Source of the DNA: Chitinophagaceae bacterium
GTDB lineage: Bacteria > Bacteroidota > Bacteroidia > Chitinophagales > Chitinophagaceae
Length of the DNA stretch: 40,473 bases
Assembly (NCBI GenBank): GCA_947381435.1
Contig: CANCVE010000030.1
Coordinates: 1-40,473 of the forward strand
Direction of reading: 5' to 3'
The position numbers and the translations under genes are program-made. Shown here in pieces: positions 2,219 through 29,445 of the stretch. The notes under the pieces are model-generated. The model was not told where the DNA came from. It did not search any database and saw only the letters and a program-made list of their open reading frames with translations. Every line of letters begins with the position of its first letter. The first letter of the stretch is position 1.

Positions 2219-2884
2219 TTACCATATCATAATAGCCAATACCCTACTAACCGGCCCCCTTTTGCCAGTATTGTTCTCATAGCTACACCTGTAATAACTT
2301 GTTTTACCCACTTCTTTTATATCAAAATGGGTGGAATGGAATGCCTTTGATACATTCTTTCCATTGCCAAAAACAATATCTGCCTCTTTCATATCCGCCT
2401 CCCCAATAAAATTTTCTAGGTACACCCAGTGTCCATGTGGCATCTCCATGCTATTAGGTGTTTTAGGGCTTTGCAGTTTCAATGTCTGGTATAAATGCTC
2501 GTTTTCATCCCCAAGCATCCTTGGCGCAAAGTCTACAATCAATATATCAGTGGTACTATCGTTGCCATGCCCCTTTATATTAAGCACAAGCTTATCATTT
2601 GTTGTCAATACAGAAACAGGCAGATCGAGGTATATGCGCCTAAAACAAATCTCTATTTGACTACGTAATGAAACCTTTTCTTTTTGAGAAAATTTGTTGC
2701 TCAGGTTTTCATCAGCATACACTTTCCAGTTATTATTCCATTTAATAACAAGCCCTAAAGCTTCCTCTAGGTCATCATCCGTTATCCTAAGATGCAATTG
2801 CCAATCAATAATATAAGTAATCACTGTTTGTACATAATTGTTAAAGTCACCATCCTTTGATGGAAATATATGTCTATCGCTCAT
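2219..2884 (-). CDS. Conserved hypothetical protein
   Basis: A 221-residue soluble protein with no signal peptide or membrane segment. The N-terminal half is helical and rich in Trp and acidic residues (W28, W49, W53). A Lys/Arg-rich segment at about 63-85 follows, then a beta-rich half with KGHGNDSTTDILIVDFAPR and EMPHGHWVYLENF. It ends in a basic, aromatic stretch, CSYENNTGKRGPVSRVLAIMIW. I recognise no catalytic motif. The architecture recalls Bacteroidota proteins of about 220 residues of unknown function that often lie next to short-repeat arrays, and this gene too starts 84 bp downstream of a 21-bp palindrome array. Overlapping open frames on the other strand lack any protein-like features. 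Confidence 0.6.
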   Translation of the reverse strand: MSDRHIFPSKDGDFNNYVQTVITYIIDWQLHLRITDDDLEEALGLVIKWNNNWKVYADENLSNKFSQKEKVSLRSQIEICFRRIYLDLPVSVLTTNDKLVLNIKGHGNDSTTDILIVDFAPRMLGDENEHLYQTLKLQSPKTPNSMEMPHGHWVYLENFIGEADMKEADIVFGNGKNVSKAFHSTHFDIKEVGKTSYYRCSYENNTGKRGPVSRVLAIMIW

Positions 2885-2967
2885 TGTGCTTTGTTTTAGG
2901 TATAACCTGAGAGTATAATGTGTTAGCTAGTGGTAATACTTTTGTATTAAAACGATACGAGACAAAA

Positions 2968-3170
2968 CTCACTAGTGAGACAACCAATTCCACTTGTGGG
3001 CAGAACCACGCCACTAGTGAGCATACCAATTCCACTTGTGGGATCGTACGCCCCATATATGGGATTGGTGGCTTCACTAGTGAGATTAGTGTGCTCAACA
3101 GTGAAAAAGACCGGCTCACTAGTGAGCGGTAGCATTCCACAAGTGAGGGTAATGAGTTCACAAGCGAGAT
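2968..3170. repeat. Array of ten palindromes at exact 21-bp spacing
   Basis: Ten palindromic cores, mostly CACTAGTG, CACTTGTG or CACAAGTG flanked by C/G pairs, are centred at 2973.5, 2994.5, 3015.5, 3036.5, 3057.5, 3078.5, 3099.5, 3120.5, 3141.5 and 3162.5, an invariant 21 bp. CTCACTAGTGAG and CCCATATATGGG are perfect 12-bp palindromes. The sequence between the cores is not conserved. Several frames on both strands stay open across the array because 21 is a multiple of three; those frames (up to 149 codons, 3323-2874) are artefacts. The array lies upstream of the 2219-2884 gene. Confidence 0.9.
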
Positions 3171-3550
3171 GATGTTAAATAGCTGTTTTGCTTTATGTAC
3201 TCCTTGCAGTAACTTCATTACTGCAAATACCAACATTATTGCTAAAGCGAGGCAAGGGATTAATTGAAGACAAATATGTGACCAATATGCTATGGGCGCA
3301 ATCATTATGTAAATATACCTCATTATAATGATGGACGGACTTTTATAACTAAAGGCTGATACTGCTTTTCAATACCATGCTTAAAAAAAAGGGTTAAAAT
3401 GAAGTTCATAAAGCTTTATAAAACTTTTAATGAAATTTCACTGATTGATAACAGACAAATAATATTAGCAAAAGCCATCCTCTTCCAATCTAGGAAATAA
3501 AGGCAATACACTTACAACAAGGAATAACTACTGTATGGCAGCGTATCTAC
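3171..3550. other. Intergenic region with no recognised gene
   Basis: AT-rich sequence between the palindrome array and the hairpin at 3551. I see no coding, RNA or repeat signal that I can support. Confidence 0.5.
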
Positions 3551-3624
3551 TTATTAAAATATAAAAGGGTCAAAAGCAATAGGTGATAACCCCCATTGCT
3601 TTTGACCCTTTTATATTTTAATAA
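3551..3624 (-). terminator. Hairpin with perfect 30-bp arms, terminator of the trp-his unit
   Basis: Bases 3551-3580 and 3595-3624 are perfect inverted repeats around a 14-base loop. The GC core is GGGTCAAAAGC/GCTTTTGACCC, flanked by A-rich and T-rich ends, so it can act as an intrinsic terminator in either direction. It starts 8 bp after the stop of the TlpA-like gene (3633), and no plus-strand gene reads into it from the left. Confidence 0.8.
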
Positions 3625-3632
3625 GAAAGCTA

Positions 3633-4700
3633 TTATTTTAGAATGGCTTTCAATTTATCTTGTAACTCCTCGCCTCTTAAGTTCTTTCCTATAATCTTTC
3701 CGGCAGGATCTATCAACATGTTAGCAGGAATACTTTCTATCTTGTACAACTTTCCAGCAGCATTACTCCATTGCTGCAAATCGCTTATTTGTGTCCAAGG
3801 AAGTTTATCATCATTAATGGCTTTAACCCAACTGTCTTTGTCCTTATCAAAAGATACGCCTAATACGGTGAAGTTTTTATCCTTAAACTTGTTGTAAGCG
3901 GCTAATACATTGGGGTTTTCCATGCGACATGGTCTGCACCAACTAGCCCAAAAATCTACCAATACATACTTTCCACGGAAAGAAGAAAGGCTTACAGGCT
4001 TATTTGCTGTGTCATTTTGGGTAAAATCAGTTGCAATACTACCTATCTGACCAATTTTGGCTGCTGAAATCATTCTTTCAATCTCACTAGCAAAAACTAT
4101 TTTTTTAGCAGATGGTTGTAGCACATTGAACTTGGCTTCTAATGCATCGCCTTCGTACAATTTTGCAAACTGATAGAGAATAAAAGTACTTACAGGAGAA
4201 GTAGCATTAGTCTTGATAAAATTATCGGTGAAAGACTTTAAAGCGTTTTTATTTGTCGTAAATACAGCAATCAAACTATCGCGTTTCTTACTAGGTTTTT
4301 CGGCATTAATAGTTGTGATTAGTTTCCCCAACTTATCATTGAGTGGCAAAAATCCTTTTACAAAAGTTTTATACTCCCCTTGAGGCACAGATCCTGTAAA
4401 AACTGCACTCTTCATAGCACCCAATTGTCCAGTAACAGTTACATTTTCGTTACCCAAAAAAAGTTCAGTAGATTCCTGAGTACCTATAAAACTCAATTGG
4501 AAGAAACTTATATCACTCACCTTTCCGCTAATGGTAAACTTGCCGCCCTTGGCATAATCCTGCGCAACCGTATTGCCCTGAATATCTTGCAAAAATACTA
4601 GGGTACTATCTTTTAACCCCTTAACATTTCCTTTTAAAGTATATCCATTTTGGGCTATTGAAACAATTGGCAATAACAGTACTATCAGTAACTTTTTCAT
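3633..4700 (-). CDS. DUF4369/TlpA-like thiol-disulfide oxidoreductase
   Basis: A 355-residue exported thioredoxin-fold protein. Residues 1-16 (MKKLLIVLLLPIVSIA) are a signal peptide. Residues about 20-110 are a beta-rich domain of the DUF4369 type (TLKGNVKGLKDSTLVFLQD). Residues about 225-355 are a TlpA/AhpC-like thioredoxin domain with VLVDFWASWCRPCRMENPN; the redox pair is C255/C258, and GVSFDKDKDSW and SIPANMLIDPAGKI follow. Such proteins reduce or shuffle disulfides in the periplasm, for example in cytochrome maturation. The gene starts 15 bp after hisIE and is followed by the 30-bp-arm terminator, so it looks like the last gene of the trp-his unit. It has no obvious pathway link to histidine. 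Confidence 0.9.
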   Translation of the reverse strand: MKKLLIVLLLPIVSIAQNGYTLKGNVKGLKDSTLVFLQDIQGNTVAQDYAKGGKFTISGKVSDISFFQLSFIGTQESTELFLGNENVTVTGQLGAMKSAVFTGSVPQGEYKTFVKGFLPLNDKLGKLITTINAEKPSKKRDSLIAVFTTNKNALKSFTDNFIKTNATSPVSTFILYQFAKLYEGDALEAKFNVLQPSAKKIVFASEIERMISAAKIGQIGSIATDFTQNDTANKPVSLSSFRGKYVLVDFWASWCRPCRMENPNVLAAYNKFKDKNFTVLGVSFDKDKDSWVKAINDDKLPWTQISDLQQWSNAAGKLYKIESIPANMLIDPAGKIIGKNLRGEELQDKLKAILK

Positions 4701-4715
4701 TCGCTTTTTTTATAT

Positions 4716-5324
4716 TTATTTTTTATGTCTGCTTTGTAATACGTCCAAAACCTCGTGCAATTTATAATCTTTGGCTTTAAGTAACAATAAATAATGAAAT
4801 AATAAGTCTGCGGCTTCTCCTAAAAACAAGTCTTTATCGTTATCTTTTGCTTCAATAACCAATTCTACTGCCTCCTCTCCCACTTTTTGAGCCACTTTAT
4901 TGATGCCTTTTGCCAACATTTTAGCAGTGTACGAAGTTTCTGGAGCGGCTTTACTTCGTTGTTCTATTATTTCTTCCAAGTAAAATAAAAAGTCACTCGA
5001 TTCATTCTTTTCATTCCAACAAGTATCTGCACCGGTATGGCAAACTGGTCCAACGGGATTTGCCTTAATCAATAAAGTATCATTATCGCAATCAATAACA
5101 ATGGATTCTAACAATAAAAAGTTACCACTCTCCTCCCCTTTTGTCCAAAGGCGTTGTTTACTACGGCTATAAAATGTGACTTTACCAATAGATTTAGTTT
5201 CGGCAAGAGCAGCCTCGTTCATAAACCCAAGCATCAACACTTTACTTGTTTTGGCGTCTTGAATAACCGCAGGAACCAATCCATCGGCATACTTTTCGAA
5301 ATCAACTTTTATATCTATACTCAT
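4716..5324 (-). CDS. hisI: Bifunctional phosphoribosyl-AMP cyclohydrolase / phosphoribosyl-ATP pyrophosphatase
   Basis: A 202-residue HisIE fusion catalysing steps 2 and 3 of histidine biosynthesis in the cytoplasm. The cyclohydrolase part covers about residues 5-105: FYSRSKQRLWTKGEESGN, the metal-binding IDCDND (C79, D80, D82), and the zinc cysteines C95 and C102 in CHTGADTC. The pyrophosphohydrolase part covers about residues 112-202, a helical MazG-like fold with KVGEEAVELVIEAK and GEAADLLFHYLLLL. The length matches the bifunctional family. It lies 54 bp downstream of hisF and 15 bp upstream of the thioredoxin gene, so it is co-transcribed with both. HisG, HisD, HisC and HisB are not in this window. 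Confidence 0.95.
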   Translation of the reverse strand: MSIDIKVDFEKYADGLVPAVIQDAKTSKVLMLGFMNEAALAETKSIGKVTFYSRSKQRLWTKGEESGNFLLLESIVIDCDNDTLLIKANPVGPVCHTGADTCWNEKNESSDFLFYLEEIIEQRSKAAPETSYTAKMLAKGINKVAQKVGEEAVELVIEAKDNDKDLFLGEAADLLFHYLLLLKAKDYKLHEVLDVLQSRHKK

Positions 5325-5378
5325 TATTTGCTTTGAAAACCATTAATTAATTGCGCAGACGAAAATATGGTTATGTCT

Positions 5379-6191
5379 TTATATACGCATAAGAATATTT
5401 TGTTCTTTAAGATAACTTTTCAAATCGGGGATACTTATTTCCTTAAAATGAAAGATACTTGCCGCCAAAGCAGCATCTGCTTTGCCTTTCGTAAACACAT
5501 CAACAAAGTGCGGCATTGTTCCACCGCCACCACTTGCAATGATTGGCACGGGCAACAAATCGCTCAAAACACTGGTAATATCCAACGCAAAACCCTGCTT
5601 TGTACCATCATGATTCATGGAAGTAAGTAGTATTTCGCCAGCGCCTAAGTTTACCGCTTGCTTTGCCCAATCAATTGTTTTAGCTTGTGTTTTTATGCGT
5701 CCACCATTAAGGTAAACATACCATTCGCCATCATCCTCCAAACGGGTATCAATAGCCAAAACAACAAATTGGCTACCAAATTCCTTTGCTAATTCATTAA
5801 TTAATTGAGGGTTTCTAAAGGCTGCCGAGTTTATACTTACCTTATCAGCCCCATTTTTCAATAACACAGAAGCATCATCAATAGAACTGACACCACCACC
5901 CACCGTAAACGGAATATTGATGTAACGGGCAATTCTGTTTACTAGTTCGCTCAACGTTTTACGCTTTTCTACGGTTGCTGTAATATCCAAAAATACCAGT
6001 TCATCAGCACCTTGTTCAGCATAAAAAGCACCCAATTCAACCGGGTCGCCAGCATCACGGATGTTCTCAAAGTTCACCCCTTTAACTGTTCTTCCATCAC
6101 GAATATCCAAACAAGGGATGATGCGTTTTGCGAACCCCTCCGCCCCTAAAGGGGAACTTGAAACACCCGAACTATTGATATTTTGTTCCAT
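5379..6191 (-). CDS. hisF: Imidazole glycerol phosphate synthase cyclase subunit HisF
   Basis: A (beta/alpha)8 barrel that uses HisH-derived ammonia to convert PRFAR to imidazole glycerol phosphate and AICAR. Conserved parts are [19 protein letters not shown] (catalytic Asp at D29 in this numbering), [35 protein letters not shown] and IIASGGGGT. At 270 residues it is about 19 longer than usual because the protein begins [19 protein letters not shown] before the normal start region. That stretch is encoded by a CCCCTTTAGGGGCGGAGG element found again in the upstream spacer. No internal ATG, GTG or TTG lies at the canonical start, so the extension is probably translated. The start region is duplicated twice upstream (mini-ORFs at 6234-6272 and 6345-6383). 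Confidence 0.95.
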
Positions 6192-6233
6192 TTTAAATTA
6201 TTAAATTTATGCAACTTCAATTCTGTAAACGAC

Positions 6234-6272
6234 TCAGTTTCCTTTTAGGGACGGAAGGGTATTATCTTCCAT
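6234..6272 (-). other. Mini-ORF in first upstream copy of the hisF start region
   Basis: A 12-codon frame, MEDNTLPSLKGN, starts at an ATG (6272) in the same context as the hisF ATG (AATT-AAAATGGAA). About 40 bp of similar sequence precedes it (GGTCGTTTAC...GAAAGACGTTTAA). It ends in TGA after a TCCCTAAAAGGAAA variant of the element that codes residues 12-17 of HisF. Translation is unproven. Confidence 0.45.
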
Positions 6273-6427
6273 TTTCAATTGTTAAAATTAAACGTCTTTC
6301 ACCCAGTAAACGACCTAGTACCCCTTTAGGGGCGGAGGGGTTACTTAGTTTCCCTTTAGGGACGGAAGGATAATATCTTCCATTTTAAATTCTTTAATTT
6401 AGACATCTTTCACCTAATGAACGACCT
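6238..6427. repeat. Tandem ~80-110-bp duplication with CCTTTAGGG elements
   Basis: 6238-6316 and 6349-6427 are direct repeats (TTTCCYTTTAGGGACGGAAGG, then WATATCTTCCATTTT, then CACC-ARTRAACGACCT). A third, more diverged copy is the hisF 5' end itself, where the CCTTTAGGGG palindrome is read as Pro-Leu-Gly. Another element stands at 6320-6341. Confidence 0.85.
6345..6383 (-). other. Mini-ORF in second upstream copy of the hisF start region
   Basis: A 12-codon frame, MEDIILPSLKGN, starts at an ATG (6383) 111 bp upstream of the first copy's ATG. The surrounding 80 bp (6349-6427) is clearly a duplicate of 6238-6316. An extra 30 bp between the copies carries another CCCCTTTAGGGGCGGAGGGG element (6320-6341). 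Translation is unproven. Confidence 0.45.
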
Positions 6428-6482
6428 ATTTTTTCTTTAAATACGAACGGGTATAAGAAAAAAGAAAATTTTATTCATCAAT

Positions 6483-6650
6483 AAAATGATTTAGTTGATG
6501 AAGTTTTTCATTTACTTAATGAAGTTTTACATTTAGTTGATGAAGTTTTTCATTTACTTAATGAAGTTTTTCATCTACTTAATGAAGTTTTTCAATTACT
6601 TAATGAAGTTTTTCGTTTACTTGATGAAGTTTTTCATTTACTTCATCAAG
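6483..6650. repeat. 21-bp tandem repeat array, eight copies
   Basis: The unit is TTTTTCATTTACTTAATGAAG. Its last base falls at 6503, 6524, 6545, 6566, 6587, 6608, 6629 and 6650, so the period is exactly 21 bp. Each unit carries an interrupted dyad, TTCATT/AATGAA. Variants are GTTGATGAAG and a terminal CTTCATCAAG. It lies between hisA and hisF and would be transcribed. Confidence 0.9.
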
Positions 6651-6667
6651 AAAACAAGCCAATTTTA

Positions 6668-7396
6668 TCAATTAACCGCTATCAATTCCTCCAAAGAAAT
6701 CCTATTTTCATAGATGGCCTTACCAATAATGACTCCTTTGCAGCCAGCCTTTTGCAGCTCATAAACATCATCAATATTTGATACGCCCCCGCTTGCTATT
6801 AGGTGCAACTGAGGAAAGCGCGCTATAATATTTTTATATAAATAAATAGAAGGCCCTTCCAGCTTTCCATCCTTGCTAACATCGGTACAAAATATTTGCT
6901 GCACCCCAAGTTGTAGATAATCTTCGATAAAGTCATAAATATTGATGCCCGTAGTCTCCAACCAACCACCAATGGCAATCATCTCGTCTTTTACATCAGC
7001 TCCCAATAAAAATTTATCAGCACCATAAGCCTGCAACCAACTAACAAAAGTGGGTTTATCCTTTACGGCAATGCTGCCCACTGTGGCATAAGCGGCACCA
7101 GAACTGAACACAATATCCACATCCTCCTGCTTTTTAATGCCCCCGCCAAAATCTATAACCATCTTAGTTTGCGATGCGATGGCTTCCAAAACTTTCCAAT
7201 TCTTAACCGAACCAGCCTTTGCCCCATCTAAATCTACCAGATGCAAACGATGCAATCCTGCATCTTCAAACATTTGGGCAACCTCCAAAGGGTTTTCGTT
7301 ATAAATGGTTTTCTGGGCATAATCACCTTGTGTAAGGCGAACACATTTACCATCTATAATATCTATTGCGGGGATAATCTCTATATGTGAATCCAT
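6668..7396 (-). CDS. hisA: ProFAR isomerase HisA
   Basis: 1-(5-phosphoribosyl)-5-[(5-phosphoribosylamino)methylideneamino]imidazole-4-carboxamide isomerase, the Amadori step that feeds HisF-HisH. The 242-residue (beta/alpha)8 barrel shows IIPAIDIIDGKCVRLTQGDY (catalytic general base D12), HLVDLDGAKAG, MVIDFGGGIKKQEDV, the second catalytic Asp in IFCTDVSKDGKLEGPS, and the phosphate loops LIASGGVSNIDDV and GVIIGKAIYE. TrpF is encoded separately in the same unit, so this is a dedicated HisA rather than a dual PriA. It begins 57 bp after hisH; that gap contains one arm of a CACAAAG-type element. Confidence 0.95.
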   Translation of the reverse strand: MDSHIEIIPAIDIIDGKCVRLTQGDYAQKTIYNENPLEVAQMFEDAGLHRLHLVDLDGAKAGSVKNWKVLEAIASQTKMVIDFGGGIKKQEDVDIVFSSGAAYATVGSIAVKDKPTFVSWLQAYGADKFLLGADVKDEMIAIGGWLETTGINIYDFIEDYLQLGVQQIFCTDVSKDGKLEGPSIYLYKNIIARFPQLHLIASGGVSNIDDVYELQKAGCKGVIIGKAIYENRISLEELIAVN

Positions 7397-7402
7397 ACTG
7401 TT

Positions 7403-7450
7403 TTATTACTTGTGTTCTTGGTGAAACCCTTGTGTACCTTGTGGTTAGCT
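7403..7450. repeat. Single arm of a CACAAAG-type dispersed element (hisH-hisA spacer)
   Basis: TTGTGTTCTTGGTG followed by CTTGTGTACCTTGTGGTTAG matches one arm of the inverted elements at 12261-12347 and 16761-16902, with the same 10-11-bp rhythm of CTTTGTG-like words. Confidence 0.55.
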
Positions 7451-7453
7451 TTT

Positions 7454-8080
7454 TTATAATTCAATAAAATTCTTCAAAATCCTCTCTCCTACCACCGATG
7501 ATTTTTCTGTATGGAACTGAACACCATAGAAATTATCCTTGTGAAATGCGGCACTATAAGGCTGCACATAATTGGTGGTGGCGATGGTATATTCATTTAA
7601 AGGAACAAAATAACTATGCACAAAATAGCAGTAACTATTCTCGTCCAAGCCTACCATCAAGGGAGATTTTAAATTGTAAAGCGTGTTCCATCCAATTTGA
7701 GGGACTTTTATATTGCTATCTTTTTCTGGACGAAAGAGTTTTACCGGCTGATGCAGAATATCCAAGCAAGGAGTATTATTCTCCTCAGAGAAAGTACAAA
7801 GCAATTGCATCCCCACACAAATGCCCAAAACAGGTTGCTTTAATTCTTTGATAACCGCATCAAGGTTATTCTCTTTTAGGCTATTCATGGCACTACTTGC
7901 TTCACCAACACCTGGGAATATTACCTTATCAGCCGCCATTATCTCTTCGTGATTATCGGTGACAATAGCTGAAACCCCAATCCTTTCCAAAGCATATAAC
8001 ACACTTTGAATGTTGCCTGCATTGTATTTTACAATAACAATATTGCCTCCTTCAGAAGTATTATTTATTTCAGTCTGCAT
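7454..8080 (-). CDS. hisH: Imidazole glycerol phosphate synthase glutaminase subunit HisH
   Basis: A class I glutamine amidotransferase that supplies ammonia to HisF. The 208-residue protein shows IVKYNAGNIQSV at the N-terminus, the oxyanion segment FPGVGEASSAM, the nucleophile elbow VLGICVGMQLLC (C88), and GVQFHTEKSS with the catalytic His near residue 191. About 13 extra residues, MQTEINNTSEGGN, precede the usual IVIVKY start. The ATG lies only 4 nt after the trpA stop, which implies translational coupling and physically joins the trp and his blocks. Confidence 0.95.
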   Translation of the reverse strand: MQTEINNTSEGGNIVIVKYNAGNIQSVLYALERIGVSAIVTDNHEEIMAADKVIFPGVGEASSAMNSLKENNLDAVIKELKQPVLGICVGMQLLCTFSEENNTPCLDILHQPVKLFRPEKDSNIKVPQIGWNTLYNLKSPLMVGLDENSYCYFVHSYFVPLNEYTIATTNYVQPYSAAFHKDNFYGVQFHTEKSSVVGERILKNFIEL

Positions 8081-8084
8081 TAAT

Positions 8085-8852
8085 TTATTTTAAGATACCC
8101 TCCAAAAAAGTCTTTGTTGTTTGTTCCACATTGGTAGAACCTTCCAAAGCCTTGATGTAAGCCGTGCCGATAATTGCCCCATTGGCATATTTGCAAGCAG
8201 CTGAGAACGTGGTTTTATCTTTAATACCAAAGCCAACCAATATTGGATTCTTCAATTTCATAGATTGTAAACGCTCCAAATACTTTTCTACTGCATTAAA
8301 GTCTTTTTCATTACCCGTTGTAGAAGAGGAGGATACAGCATACAAGAAGCCACTGCTCAAGGCATCAAGCTTTCTCACACGCTCTTCACTAGTTTCTGGT
8401 GTTACCAAAAAGATAAAGTCTAAACCGTACTTCTTAATTATTGCCCCATATTCAGTTTCATATTCATATTCGGGCAAATCGGGCAATATCAATCCATCAA
8501 CACCAACAGCGGCAGCATCAGCACAAAACTTTTCAAAGCCATATTGCAACACAGGATTCATGTAGCCCATTAAGATGATTGCAGCTTTTTTCTCTTTTAA
8601 CTCTCGTAACTGTTTAAATAAAGTTGCAATAGTCATTCCATTAGCCAAAGCAACAGAACTGCTAGCCTGAATTACAGGACCATCAGCCAAAGGATCGCTA
8701 TAAGGCATCCCAAGTTCTATAATATCAGCACCATTGGCTTGAAGTGTATTGATAATTGCAAGCGTACTATCCAATTGAGGATACCCCGCCGTACAATAAA
8801 CATTTAAAACATTGTTGGATTTATTCTTAAAAACTTCACTTAACTTACTCAT
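8085..8852 (-). CDS. trpA: Tryptophan synthase alpha subunit
   Basis: Cleaves indole-3-glycerol phosphate to indole and glyceraldehyde 3-phosphate and channels indole to TrpB. The 255-residue TIM barrel has the catalytic pair E46 and D57 in IIELGMPYSDPLADGPVIQ, then ILMGYMNPVLQYG, DGLILPDLPEYE, FLVTPETSEERV and the phosphate loop VGFGIKDKTT. The length is normal. It follows trpB after an 80-bp spacer of inverted 7-bp repeats and abuts hisH with 4 nt. Confidence 0.96.
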   Translation of the reverse strand: MSKLSEVFKNKSNNVLNVYCTAGYPQLDSTLAIINTLQANGADIIELGMPYSDPLADGPVIQASSSVALANGMTIATLFKQLRELKEKKAAIILMGYMNPVLQYGFEKFCADAAAVGVDGLILPDLPEYEYETEYGAIIKKYGLDFIFLVTPETSEERVRKLDALSSGFLYAVSSSSTTGNEKDFNAVEKYLERLQSMKLKNPILVGFGIKDKTTFSAACKYANGAIIGTAYIKALEGSTNVEQTTKTFLEGILK

Positions 8853-8858
8853 CTTTTT

Positions 8859-8940
8859 AATTAATAATTGATAATTTATAATTGATAACCTTTACCAGTG
8901 GATAATACAATTATCCATTGTCAATTATCAATTTATAATC
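8859..8940. repeat. Inverted 7-bp repeat arrays in the trpB-trpA spacer
   Basis: TTAATAA/TTGATAA/TTTATAA/TTGATAA-type heptamers on the left face TTATCCA/TTGTCAA/TTATCAA/TTTATAA on the right. The arms share AATTGATAATT and can pair in the mRNA. The last codons of trpB (Gly-Leu-stop) lie in the right array. Confidence 0.7.
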
Positions 8941-10150
8941 CCATCGCTTTCATGTAGGTAGCTAAATCTTTATCCCCACGTCCACTTAAACAAACTACTA
9001 CCACATCATTTGGTGTAAGGTTCAACCTTGACAAAGCCGCAAAAGCATGAGCTGTTTCCAACGCTGGGATGATGCCTTCAATTTTAGATATATGAAAGGC
9101 CGCTTCCAATGCTTCCTCATCGGTTGCAGAAAGAAAAGTGCCACGACCACTTTTAAATAAGTTAGCATGCAATGGACCGATACCAGGATAATCTAATCCG
9201 GCAGAAATGCTATGGGGTTCCACTACCTGACCATCTTCGGTTTGCATTACTAAACTTTTACTACCATGCAATACACCCGACTTGCCCAACTGCGTAGTTG
9301 CAGCACTCATGCCCGAAGTAATACCATGACCAGCAGCTTCTACAGCCACTAGTTGAACTGATAATTCATCCAAATAATGATAAAAAGCACCAGCGGCATT
9401 ACTACCTCCACCCACACAAGCCACAACGTGCGTAGGATTTTCGCTACCTGTTTTCTCCAAAAGCTGTGTTCTAATCTCCTCACTAATCACACTCTGAAAA
9501 CGTGCTACCATATCTGGATAAGGGTGCGGACCAACCACACTTCCAATTATATAATGTGTATCAACAGGGTTATTAATCCAATCTCTAATAGCTTCGTTGG
9601 TTGCATCTTTCAATGTCTTGCTACCACTAACCGCAGGAATTACTGTTGCACCAAGCAATTTCATACGGGCTACATTTGGTGCTTGACGCTCAATATCCTT
9701 TTCGCCCATATATACGATGCACTCCATTCCTTTCAATGCACAAACTGTAGCAGTGGCAACACCATGTTGGCCAGCACCGGTTTCGGCAATAATCCTTGTT
9801 TTGCCAAGTCTCCTTGCCAACAATATCTGCCCGATGGTATTATTTATCTTATGGGCTCCTGTATGACACAAGTCTTCGCGCTTTAGATAAATGTTCGAAT
9901 TAAGTTCCGCACTCAATCTTTCAGCATAAAATAAAGGCGTTGGTCTGCCCACATAATCTTTCAATAATTGCCTGAACTCTTCCTGAAAAGAAGGCTCAGC
10001 CATTATCTTCAAATAGCCTTCTTTCAATTCTGCCACATTCCTTTGCAACATTTCGGGAATGTACGCCCCGCCAAAACTTCCATAGTAACCATGTTCATTA
10101 GGATTTTGAAATCCTATTTCTTGCACCGGCTCTAACACATTTGTTCCCAT
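8933..10150 (-). CDS. trpB: Tryptophan synthase beta subunit
   Basis: The PLP enzyme that condenses indole with serine. The 405-residue TrpB1-type protein has [41 protein letters not shown] with the PLP lysine K101, [13 protein letters not shown], the phosphate-binding [10 protein letters not shown] and the C-terminal [12 protein letters not shown]. The length is normal. It follows the repeat-rich exported protein by 21 bp, so that gene is probably co-transcribed. Confidence 0.97.
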
Positions 10151-12352: not shown

Positions 12353-13138
12353 CTACTTCGCTCTTAATTCCGTTACAAAATCAGCAAATGCAATCGTCGG
12401 GTCAGCCTGTTTCATAAAATGTTCCCCTATCAAAAATCCTTTGAAACCTGCTTTGCGTAAAAATACAATAGTATCAGTATTGTTTATACCACTTTCTGCA
12501 ACGGCTACTTTATTTGTTGGTATAGCCTTAATAAGTTGCGCCGAAGCCTCCACATTCACCACAAAATCCTTCAAATTCCTATTATTTACTCCAACCAAAT
12601 CTACTTCATCACAAATATGCCCCAACTCTTCGTCGTTATGTATTTCTAGCAACACTTCCAATCCCAAATTCTTTGCCGCAATAGCCAATTCCTTTGTCCT
12701 TTCAGCCGATAAACAAGCGGCTATCAACAATATCACCGATGCCCCATAAGCCTTCGCCTCTACCAATTGGTATTCATCAATCATAAAATCCTTTCTTAAA
12801 AGAGGGATTTGATTGATGGTTGCAGCCTCCAAATCTAACAATGTACCTCCAAAGAAATGACTATCCGTTAATACTGAGATGCCTGATGCCCCGTTTTGTG
12901 TATAAGCTTTTGTAACCTCTTCTACAGTTGACGTGTTGTTAATAACCCCTTTTGATGGCGATTGACGTTTATATTCTGCTATAATTCCTGTTTTGGTTTC
13001 ATCCAATAAGAATTTTTTAAGCGACAGACAAGGCTTTGCAAACAAAGGCATCGCCTCTAGTTGTGCAACACTTTTCAAGGCCTTTGCCTCTGCCACTTCT
13101 ATTTGTTTATGTGCAATTATTCTATCTAAAATATTCAT
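12353..13138 (-). CDS. trpC: Indole-3-glycerol phosphate synthase
   Basis: Closes the indole ring from CdRP. The 261-residue barrel has IIAEYKRQSPSKGVIN (catalytic Lys and phosphate contacts), ISVLTDSHFFGG, LLRKDFMIDEYQ, ASVILLIAACLS, EVLLEIHNDEEL, GVNNRNLKDFVV, VAESGIN and FLIGEHFM. The length is normal for a monofunctional TrpC. It follows trpD after a spacer filled by a 21-bp repeat array. Confidence 0.97.
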   Translation of the reverse strand: MNILDRIIAHKQIEVAEAKALKSVAQLEAMPLFAKPCLSLKKFLLDETKTGIIAEYKRQSPSKGVINNTSTVEEVTKAYTQNGASGISVLTDSHFFGGTLLDLEAATINQIPLLRKDFMIDEYQLVEAKAYGASVILLIAACLSAERTKELAIAAKNLGLEVLLEIHNDEELGHICDEVDLVGVNNRNLKDFVVNVEASAQLIKAIPTNKVAVAESGINNTDTIVFLRKAGFKGFLIGEHFMKQADPTIAFADFVTELRAK

Positions 13139-13204
13139 TTATAAAAAGAGTTATTTGTTTTTGAATGATTAAAAGCTGTTTATTGGCTCTCAATTATGTT
13201 CATC

Positions 13205-13430
13205 TAATGCCGCATTTGCTTGAACTTATGCCGCATTTGGTTAACCTTATGTCGCATTTGGTTAACCTTATGTCGCATTTGGTTAACACTTTGTTGCATT
13301 TGGTTAACACTTTGTCGCATTTGGTTAACACTTTGTCACATTTGGTTAACACTTTGTCGCATTTGGTTAACACTTTGTCGAATTTGGTTAACCTTATGTC
13401 GCATTTGGTTAACACTTTGCCGCAATTATT
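13205..13430. repeat. 21-bp tandem repeat array filling the trpD-trpC spacer
   Basis: About eleven copies of GTCGCATTTGGTTAACACTTT, or the variant with CCTTATG in place of CACTTTG, at a 21-bp period. Each is centred on the palindrome GTTAAC. The last, degenerate unit (CCGCAATTATTGC) overlaps the trpD stop codon at 13426-13428. Open frames of 79-95 codons across it on both strands are artefacts of the period being a multiple of three. Confidence 0.92.
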
Positions 13431-27605: not shown

Positions 27606-27835
27606 GTTTCAGAAAGTTTTCGCTTTATTTCTGAACTAAAGTGAAAACTTTCTGAATTAATCGACTTAGTACTGAACTAAAGTGAAAACTTTCTGAATTA
27701 ATCGACTTAGTTCTGAACTAAAGTGAAAACTTTCTGAAAGTTTCGACTTAGTACTGAACTAAAGTGAAAACTTTCTGAATTAATCGACTTAGTACTGAAC
27801 TAAAGTGAAAACTTTCTGAAAGTTTCTGGTTAGTC
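27606..27835. repeat. ~41-bp tandem repeat array with 20/21-bp half-units
   Basis: TCGACTTAG recurs at 27661, 27702, 27743 and 27784, a 41-bp period. Each unit contains two half-units starting CTGAACTAAAGTG and CTGAATTAATCG. AAAGT/ACTTT dyads (AAAGTGAAAACTTT) occur in each copy. It is flanked by degenerate copies at both ends. Confidence 0.9.
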
Positions 27836-28080
27836 ACGAAACTTTACTAAACATCAGTTTATCTGGTGAAGCGTAATACATTTTTCTACCTATCAAACAG
27901 CATAAATGGCTATTACACATCCAATTTATCATCATGAAAAAACTTAAAATTTGCCTTTTAAAATCCTTAAAACAAAAGTGGGAGACATTGCAGGCCTAAC
28001 AACGGTAATGACTCTAGCCATCTTTGAAAATACACTGGTAATAAAATAATACTTCTAAACTGCCTCTTTCCTTTTAACTA
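27836..28080. other. Intergenic region with no supported gene
   Basis: A 21-codon frame at 27935 (MKKLKICLLK) and a shifted hydrophobic frame after it could be a remnant of a small gene, but neither is convincing. Confidence 0.4.
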
Positions 28081-28180
28081 TCAACTCTTGACTTTCGACT
28101 TTCGACTCTTGACTTTCGACTCTTGACTTTCGACTCTTGACATTCCACTCTTGACTCTTGACTTTCGACTCTTGACTTTC
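28081..28180. repeat. Heptamer tandem array (TTGACTT/TCGACTC)
   Basis: About fourteen consecutive 7-bp words alternate TTGACTY and TCGACTY with few variants. It ends 94 bp before the ATG of the carboxylate-amine ligase gene. Confidence 0.92.
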
Positions 28181-28274
28181 AAAAAAATGAATCATTTTTT
28201 AAATATTTTAGTCAAATAATAAACTTTTTCTTGCTAATGACCTACATTTATAGCCGGCAATTGAAAACAAATTA

Positions 28275-29389: not shown

Positions 29390-29445
29390 TAGATATGAGA
29401 TATGAGATATGAGTTATGAGATATTAGTTATGAGATATTAGTTGT
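29390..29445. repeat. Heptamer array (AGATATG/AGTTATG)
   Basis: AGATATG, AGATATG, AGATATG, AGTTATG, AGATATT, AGTTATG, AGATATT, AGTTGTT follow the stop of the ligase gene directly. Confidence 0.8.

Follow-up and report, generated by a model that had tools for sequence, protein, structure and literature searches.

Arrays of short sites repeated every 21 bp, many of them palindromic, lie on the 5' side of ordinary genes in the genus of this Chitinophagaceae bacterium, and the reading preferred here, to which we give a probability of about one half, is that they are amplified multi-site operators for putative dimeric DNA-binding proteins. What was established by computation is the ruler of 21 bp, the placement 5' of genes, an excess of dyads and a mirror-symmetric conservation. 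A length of 21 bp corresponds to two helical turns. According to the operator reading, a dimeric protein would bind each site, dimers next to each other would make cooperative contacts along one helix face, and together they would control the adjacent promoter. Different arrays would be read by different or diverging proteins, and it is proposed that the site sequence differs between loci for this reason. It is also proposed that duplication or conversion carries units from place to place within an array, by which a change of site could sweep the array without loss of phase, and that as the specificity of the binder drifts, the sites would change at its several loci.

The array of the window and its copies

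The window, i.e., the whole stretch of 40,473 nucleotides that was analysed, contains a phased array at 2968..3168 (listed without a strand, as are the other arrays given below) which, as judged from the sequence and a chance test, consists of ten 12-bp dyad sites placed 21 bp from centre to centre and separated by 9-bp spacers. The sites start at 2968 + 21k (k = 0-9), namely at 2968-2979, 2989-3000, 3010-3021, 3031-3042, 3052-3063, 3073-3084, 3094-3105, 3115-3126, 3136-3147 and 3157-3168, the final one stopping at 3168. CAC-NN-GTG is exact in seven of the ten, and the others carry CATATATG (in 3052-3063), CAACAGTG (in 3094-3105) and CACAAGCG (in 3157-3168). When ten centres were scored at five pairs each, with the central pair excluded, 39 of 50 dyad pairs were matched; the maximum was 31 among 20 mononucleotide-shuffled windows, and in the real window the best of the remaining 15- to 30-bp periods (period 22) also reached 31. 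A chance origin of the array is unlikely. The ten palindromes at exactly 21 bp that the first-pass annotation had described are thus confirmed. Its further statement that dyad symmetry and phase are conserved, and not a unit sequence, was only partly right, because the CAC/GTG half-sites are themselves conserved.

A spacer of 83 bp (2885..2967, minus strand) separates the array from the start codon of a gene for a 221-aa protein (2219..2884, minus strand), and the TANNTTTG box was not found on the coding strand of this spacer. The protein belongs to a multicopy family in the genus; Pfam gave no match to it, and NCBIfam none that was significant. Structure prediction (mean pLDDT 84, pTM 0.48) gave a helical N-terminal part and a C-terminal sandwich of the fibronectin-III (FN3) type, and in Foldseek the model was matched to FN3 domains with a best E of 1.7e-5 and query TM-scores of about 0.3. 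The protein was considered as a possible binder of the array, which was judged unlikely because helices and an FN3-type sandwich are predicted and because arrays precede many unrelated genes. In a first set of 19 family loci, 18 of them with upstream DNA, upstream arrays of period 21 were found by Tandem Repeats Finder (TRF) at 16 of the 18, one with only 1.9 copies; in a second set, 20 loci were fetched, and 12 of the 17 with enough upstream DNA show a lag-21/42 match of at least 0.58. In several family genes, 7-bp repeats directly follow the stop codon.

A second copy of the window array, with the same unit order and 78% identity, is located on another contig (C90) of this genome (G000). Behind this copy (L002), the 221-aa gene is reduced to its first codons, i.e., to a truncated paralogue at which the array was kept. 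Within this genome, three occurrences of CACNNGTG at 21 bp are confined to this pair of loci; the strict pattern is present in eight of 13 genus genomes and in none of 46 others, and the same pattern read backwards as a control gave six hits in G001 and one in G010. The phase survives strong divergence: the window array differs from the C90 copy by 49 substitutions and from its G003 orthologue by 72, in both cases without any indel over 201 aligned bases, and its alignment with that of G002 has one 1-base gap.

Other arrays are also present in the window. A second 21-bp array (6489..6650, unit ATTTACTTAATGAAGTTTTTC) is flanked by two His_biosynth genes, which are read as hisA and hisF, and is located 298 bp upstream of the second gene of this pair, and a third (13199..13427) lies upstream of an IGPS gene read as trpC (12353-13138, minus strand); at the trpC position related species have arrays too, but of other sequence. 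An array with a period of 41 bp (about 2 x 20.5) occupies about 27620..27820, and 41-bp arrays are also found upstream of trpC in G012 and G004. Genes of his and trp biosynthesis are grouped at 4716-10150, among them the two His_biosynth genes by Pfam, and other genes there are, from their sequence, presumably hisIE, hisH, trpA and trpB. Rfam gave no match in the window at gathering score. Beyond the window array, an inverted repeat with perfect 31-bp arms around a 14-bp loop (3550-3580 and 3595-3625) precedes the 3' end of a thioredoxin-like gene (3633-4700, minus strand) and has the look of a terminator-type hairpin, and tandem repeats with 7-bp units stand beside genes at 28064-28182 and 29391-29443 (GACTTTC/GACTCTT, AGATATG).

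Extent and position of the array class

The array had initially been treated as a local feature, which did not hold, as several hundred such arrays are extrapolated. Across the sample, 51 distinct arrays were counted after six 7-bp-repeat arrays and pieces within 150 bp had been dropped or merged; 27 of these fall in 440 kb of this genome, from which about 300 arrays per genome are extrapolated. The 440 kb, or 9% of the genome, comprise the window and 20 stretches, which are the first 20 kb of contigs C1-C20 (largest first). TRF detected 33 arrays of at least 90 bp and a period of at most 110 bp in them, 29 of which have, by our reading, periods of 20-22, 41-44 or 63 bp. In a lag analysis of 855 kb from eight genus genomes, lag 21 was represented by 40 segments and lag 42 by 44, which mostly stem from the same arrays. 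Lags 10-13, 16-19 and 23-27 had none, lag 14 had ten, and each remaining lag between 10 and 59 had six at most. Because the method misses the window array, which is too divergent for it, these counts are low.

Arrays of the class have roughly 4-20 unit copies, one every 21 bp, and were found in seven of the eight sampled genus genomes, with none in the single 20-kb stretch of G008. The lag spectra vary between genomes; that of G012 is strongest at 83, 111 and 65 bp, and that of G011 also includes 20 bp and its multiples. Outside the genus, arrays were found in two of the 12 stretches taken from the family's other genera (G023 and G032), and repeats, with a period of 63 bp, in one of seven stretches from other families.

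Among the array-bearing intergenic gaps, 41 of 42 touch the 5' side of a gene, nine of the 51 arrays being unassignable in this count because of a stretch end or ORF overlap. The array gaps comprise 23 tandem, 18 divergent and one convergent, compared with 389, 79 and 82, respectively, among all gaps. About six convergent array gaps were expected (P 0.007-0.015 depending on the null), and divergent gaps are enriched for arrays (P 7e-6 to 0.02 by null). None of 64 arrays lies mostly inside a retained ORF, in a count from which array-overlapping ORFs shorter than 200 aa, four of which are listed, had been removed beforehand. A coding explanation was considered and rejected: as 21 is a multiple of 3, frames stay open in several phases, but arrays with periods of 20, 22 and 41 bp exist as well. 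By Pfam, the neighbours of the arrays are ordinary genes, e.g., those of histidine and tryptophan biosynthesis (read as hisF and trpC), a purL-type AIR synthase, a formyltransferase (read as fmt), a dUTPase, PEP carboxykinase (pckG), glycosidases, starch synthase and others. The TANNTTTG box, which we take to be the Bacteroidetes promoter box, was found upstream of eight of 38 genes by arrays, and none of them had it with a TTG box.

Dyad symmetry and conservation within the arrays

The possibility raised by the first-pass annotation against its own proposal, i.e., that such arrays are simple tandem duplications without an excess of dyads, was checked, and an excess was seen. When a central gap was allowed, 19 of 54 arrays had dyads at p<0.05, compared with one of 54 in a mirror-symmetry control (KS 2e-7 vs 0.68), the 54 still including six 7-bp-repeat arrays. 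Dyads were non-significant in the remaining 35, e.g., in the trpC array of G000 (p 0.72). An earlier test restricted to contiguous arms was weak (6 of 33 arrays at p<0.05) and is superseded by the test with a central gap.

Conservation per column is mirror-symmetric about the dyad, with a mean r of 0.23 (bootstrap 0.12-0.34), and the mean at the other 20 offsets is -0.066 (sd 0.049). The dyad centre was picked from the consensus letters only, and the column information was compared afterwards. The value of 0.23 comes from 51 of 63 arrays, with duplicates and 7-bp repeats removed, the rest being nearly uniform or without a dyad of 5/7 pairs. With one array per motif class the symmetry was 0.22 (42 of 54 arrays used), and a first run, in which two arrays were entered twice, had given 0.24 (53 of 69 arrays). 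In the 34 even-centred arrays, conservation is raised 2-6 bp from the axis, with low values in the spacer and at the central two bases; this is the footprint that would be expected of a dimer reading two half-sites of about 5 bp. The 17 odd-centred arrays showed the same correlation with a broader and less even profile.

An array of cruciforms or hairpins was also considered and is unsupported, because there is no excess of compensatory changes and conservation is relaxed at the central bases. Within the units of 61 genus arrays, 2438 complementary cells were observed and 2419.6 expected, of 4129; the window array alone had 43 observed and 38.9 expected, of 60, and single arrays deviate in either direction (L029 by +18.7, L152 by -14.9). 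The whole window array does fold well as a single strand (z -4.5), because it contains many mutually complementary sites. Between the two explanations offered in the first-pass annotation, the dimeric protein on one helix face is therefore the better supported, given the symmetric conservation, the kept phase and the 5' placement, whereas the chain of small cruciforms has not.

Turnover at fixed loci and competing explanations

The unit sequence varies between loci and between species, and the 21-bp phase is retained. Upstream of trpC, arrays were found at eight of 11 genus loci and at none of nine loci outside the genus; the units differ among most species, with G004 and G012 sharing one and those of G000, G005 and G006 being readable as a series. 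Among ten genus loci of pckG, a long array is present in G000 and G006 and a short one, at a contig edge, in G003. At fmt (13 genus loci), a long gene-adjacent array is found only in G000, whereas G002 has a 119-bp array far upstream and G005 a weak one of 53 bp. From these three comparisons, it follows that arrays are gained and lost and that their units are replaced as a block. That the trpC units differ in most species is odd for a fixed regulator and speaks against the operator reading.

Such replacement en bloc, and a presence that varies by species at trpC and fmt, could also be expected of selfish or neutral minisatellites, in which a quirk of replication or repair would duplicate 21-bp intergenic blocks and palindromes would be favoured as hairpins promote slippage, without any function. 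The outer units are also more divergent, as expected of internal duplication or conversion: identity to the consensus is 0.795 at the edge and 0.845-0.847 two to three units in (and 0.803 five units in, n = 15). However, this explanation is considered unlikely, as the period is fixed at 21 bp, the arrays prefer the 5' side and are deficient in convergent gaps, the conservation is symmetric about the dyad, and the phase is almost free of indels although the spacers diverge.

The site motifs at unlinked loci were compared between species. One array lies, by Pfam, between genes for NAD synthase and adenylosuccinate synthetase (purA); its sites are TCACRYGTGA in G005 and GGAAC-RY-GTGAC/GTTCC in its sister species G000, and at a gene of the 221-aa family, whose proteins are 92% identical between these two species, the array motif differs in the same way as at purA. 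GGAACRYGT at 21 bp occurs in only one of 13 genomes (G000), exactly at the purA and family-gene loci. Similarly, G001 has TCAC..GTGA and G006 has GTCAC..GTTAC both at the family gene and at the gene of a class I tRNA synthetase, which is read as ileS. The resulting split of motifs, {G001, G005} vs {G000, G006} at three unlinked loci, conflicts with the species tree, in which G000 and G005 are sisters with support 1.0, and it is taken as possible evidence for a putative binder acting in trans. For nine arrays of the CAC/GGAAC class from four species, half-site similarity at positions 3-7 was 0.72 within and 0.51 between species (18 of 7560 label permutations), and at positions 2-6 it was 0.84 and 0.66 (36 of 7560). 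The similarity within species is partly due to selection, because three of the arrays (ileS of G001, and purA and exbB of G005) were found via the CACNNGTG (CAC) pattern; purA of G000 and ileS of G006 were found by orthology. For the comparisons made without motif selection (purA/family in G000 and ileS/family in G006), the G000-G006 cross-comparisons of 0.61-0.66 are close to the within-species values of 0.68 and 0.75. The GGAAC half-site predicted at ileS of G000 was not found, the array there being a 22-bp one of other sequence. The comparison at exbB was left out, as for 11 of 13 loci its starting point was an ORF lying upstream of exbB.

Likeness of this kind could possibly be caused by a dispersed repeat family, in which ectopic recombination copies array DNA between promoters and arrays within a species are alike by shared descent and gene conversion. 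For example, the GACGTCATC-type class of G000, with four arrays and one partial match at unlinked loci, is alike over whole units at 71-83% identity, which spans most of the array, and the C90 copy consists of an array together with a truncated gene start. In the CAC/GGAAC class, spacer positions 7-10 are coherent within species (0.475 within vs 0.423 between, 12 of 7560 permutations), as copying of array DNA would give, but positions 8-10 are hardly so (0.50 vs 0.48, 294 of 7560) and not far from chance; the result varies with the cut point, and therefore a binder acting in trans and copying of arrays are not cleanly separated by it. Dispersal alone would leave the 21-bp ruler, the dyads and the 5' placement unexplained, and this explanation is regarded as improbable. 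Least probable of all are topological or architectural elements, i.e., bends in phase or a platform on which a single nucleoid-associated protein would read spacing and not sequence, close to promoters and within divergent gaps where the DNA is expected to be negatively supercoiled: the enrichment of divergent gaps, the AT-richness of columns some 8-10 bp away from the dyad (24 even-centred arrays) and a design free in sequence and strict in phase agree with them, whereas the half-sites are locus-specific and the species-coherent motifs at unlinked loci suggest that sequence is read or copied.

Multi-site operators, motif drift, iterons and minisatellites are known kinds. With minisatellites or VNTRs the arrays share head-to-tail units, internal homogenisation and more divergent edges, but they differ in the single fixed period, the 5'-side placement and the dyad-symmetric conservation. 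Plasmid iterons are direct repeats near 21 bp that lie on one helix face and bind an initiator cooperatively; the arrays resemble them in the repeat length and in having their sites on one face, but they occupy many chromosomal loci and their sites are often dyads. No replication-initiator family was among the Pfam matches of 33 proteins neighbouring or overlapping arrays. As reported in PMC8565304, LexA tends toward strong motif change, divergent palindromes are described in Bacteroidetes, and the two LexA motifs given are CTAA-N5-TTAG and GGA-N5-TCC. The present arrays are like such LexA-type multi-site operators and regulons in having pairs of palindromic half-sites upstream of genes at several loci per genome, with a motif that varies by lineage (PMC8565304). 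However, they have roughly 4-20 sites per locus in strict 21-bp phase, at about 300 arrays per genome by extrapolation, and stand before ordinary genes; moreover, CAC-NN-GTG and GGAAC-NN-GTTCC are set apart by their spacing from the two N5 motifs reported for LexA. REP and BIME elements (e.g., PMC3733652) are likewise high-copy intergenic palindromes, but here the units differ between most loci, the arrays are at gene starts and the window pattern is found at two loci of its genome. A genome-wide class of arrays with one 21-bp ruler and free unit sequence was not found described in the open-access literature searched by title and abstract, a search mostly outside subscription journals.

Beyond the operator reading itself, a broader claim is put forward tentatively and with clearly less confidence: the lineage may, as a rule, amplify regulatory sites into strict 21-bp dimer arrays of some ten copies before hundreds of ordinary genes, with sequences that may vary freely provided that symmetry and phase persist, and with unlinked loci that switch together as the binder changes its specificity. 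If this were true, the lineage would have a genome-wide cis-regulatory architecture that forms a kind by itself. Should the arrays be bound, the genus would hold hundreds of natural multi-site promoter inputs that evolve readably; operator change would be observable in sister species, and the co-evolution of binder and site, the enforcement of helical phase and genome-wide operator amplification would become open to study. If they are unbound, there would be a very strict 21-bp mutational ruler, for which a mechanism is needed.

Variation between the units of single arrays was also observed in this genome. L182 (contig C3) is an alternating 42-bp array of TTCCGTAAG..CTTACGGAA and TTCGGTAAG..CTTACCGAA units, which amounts to a symmetric exchange; a general excess of such exchanges was not found across the genus arrays. 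In L180 and L181 (contigs C70 and C86), the cores vary between units. The spacers of L180 resemble GAATTNNNAATTC, and in L181 several of the variants have kept a palindrome (ATGACGCGTCAT, GACGTC, GATATC and AGATCT).
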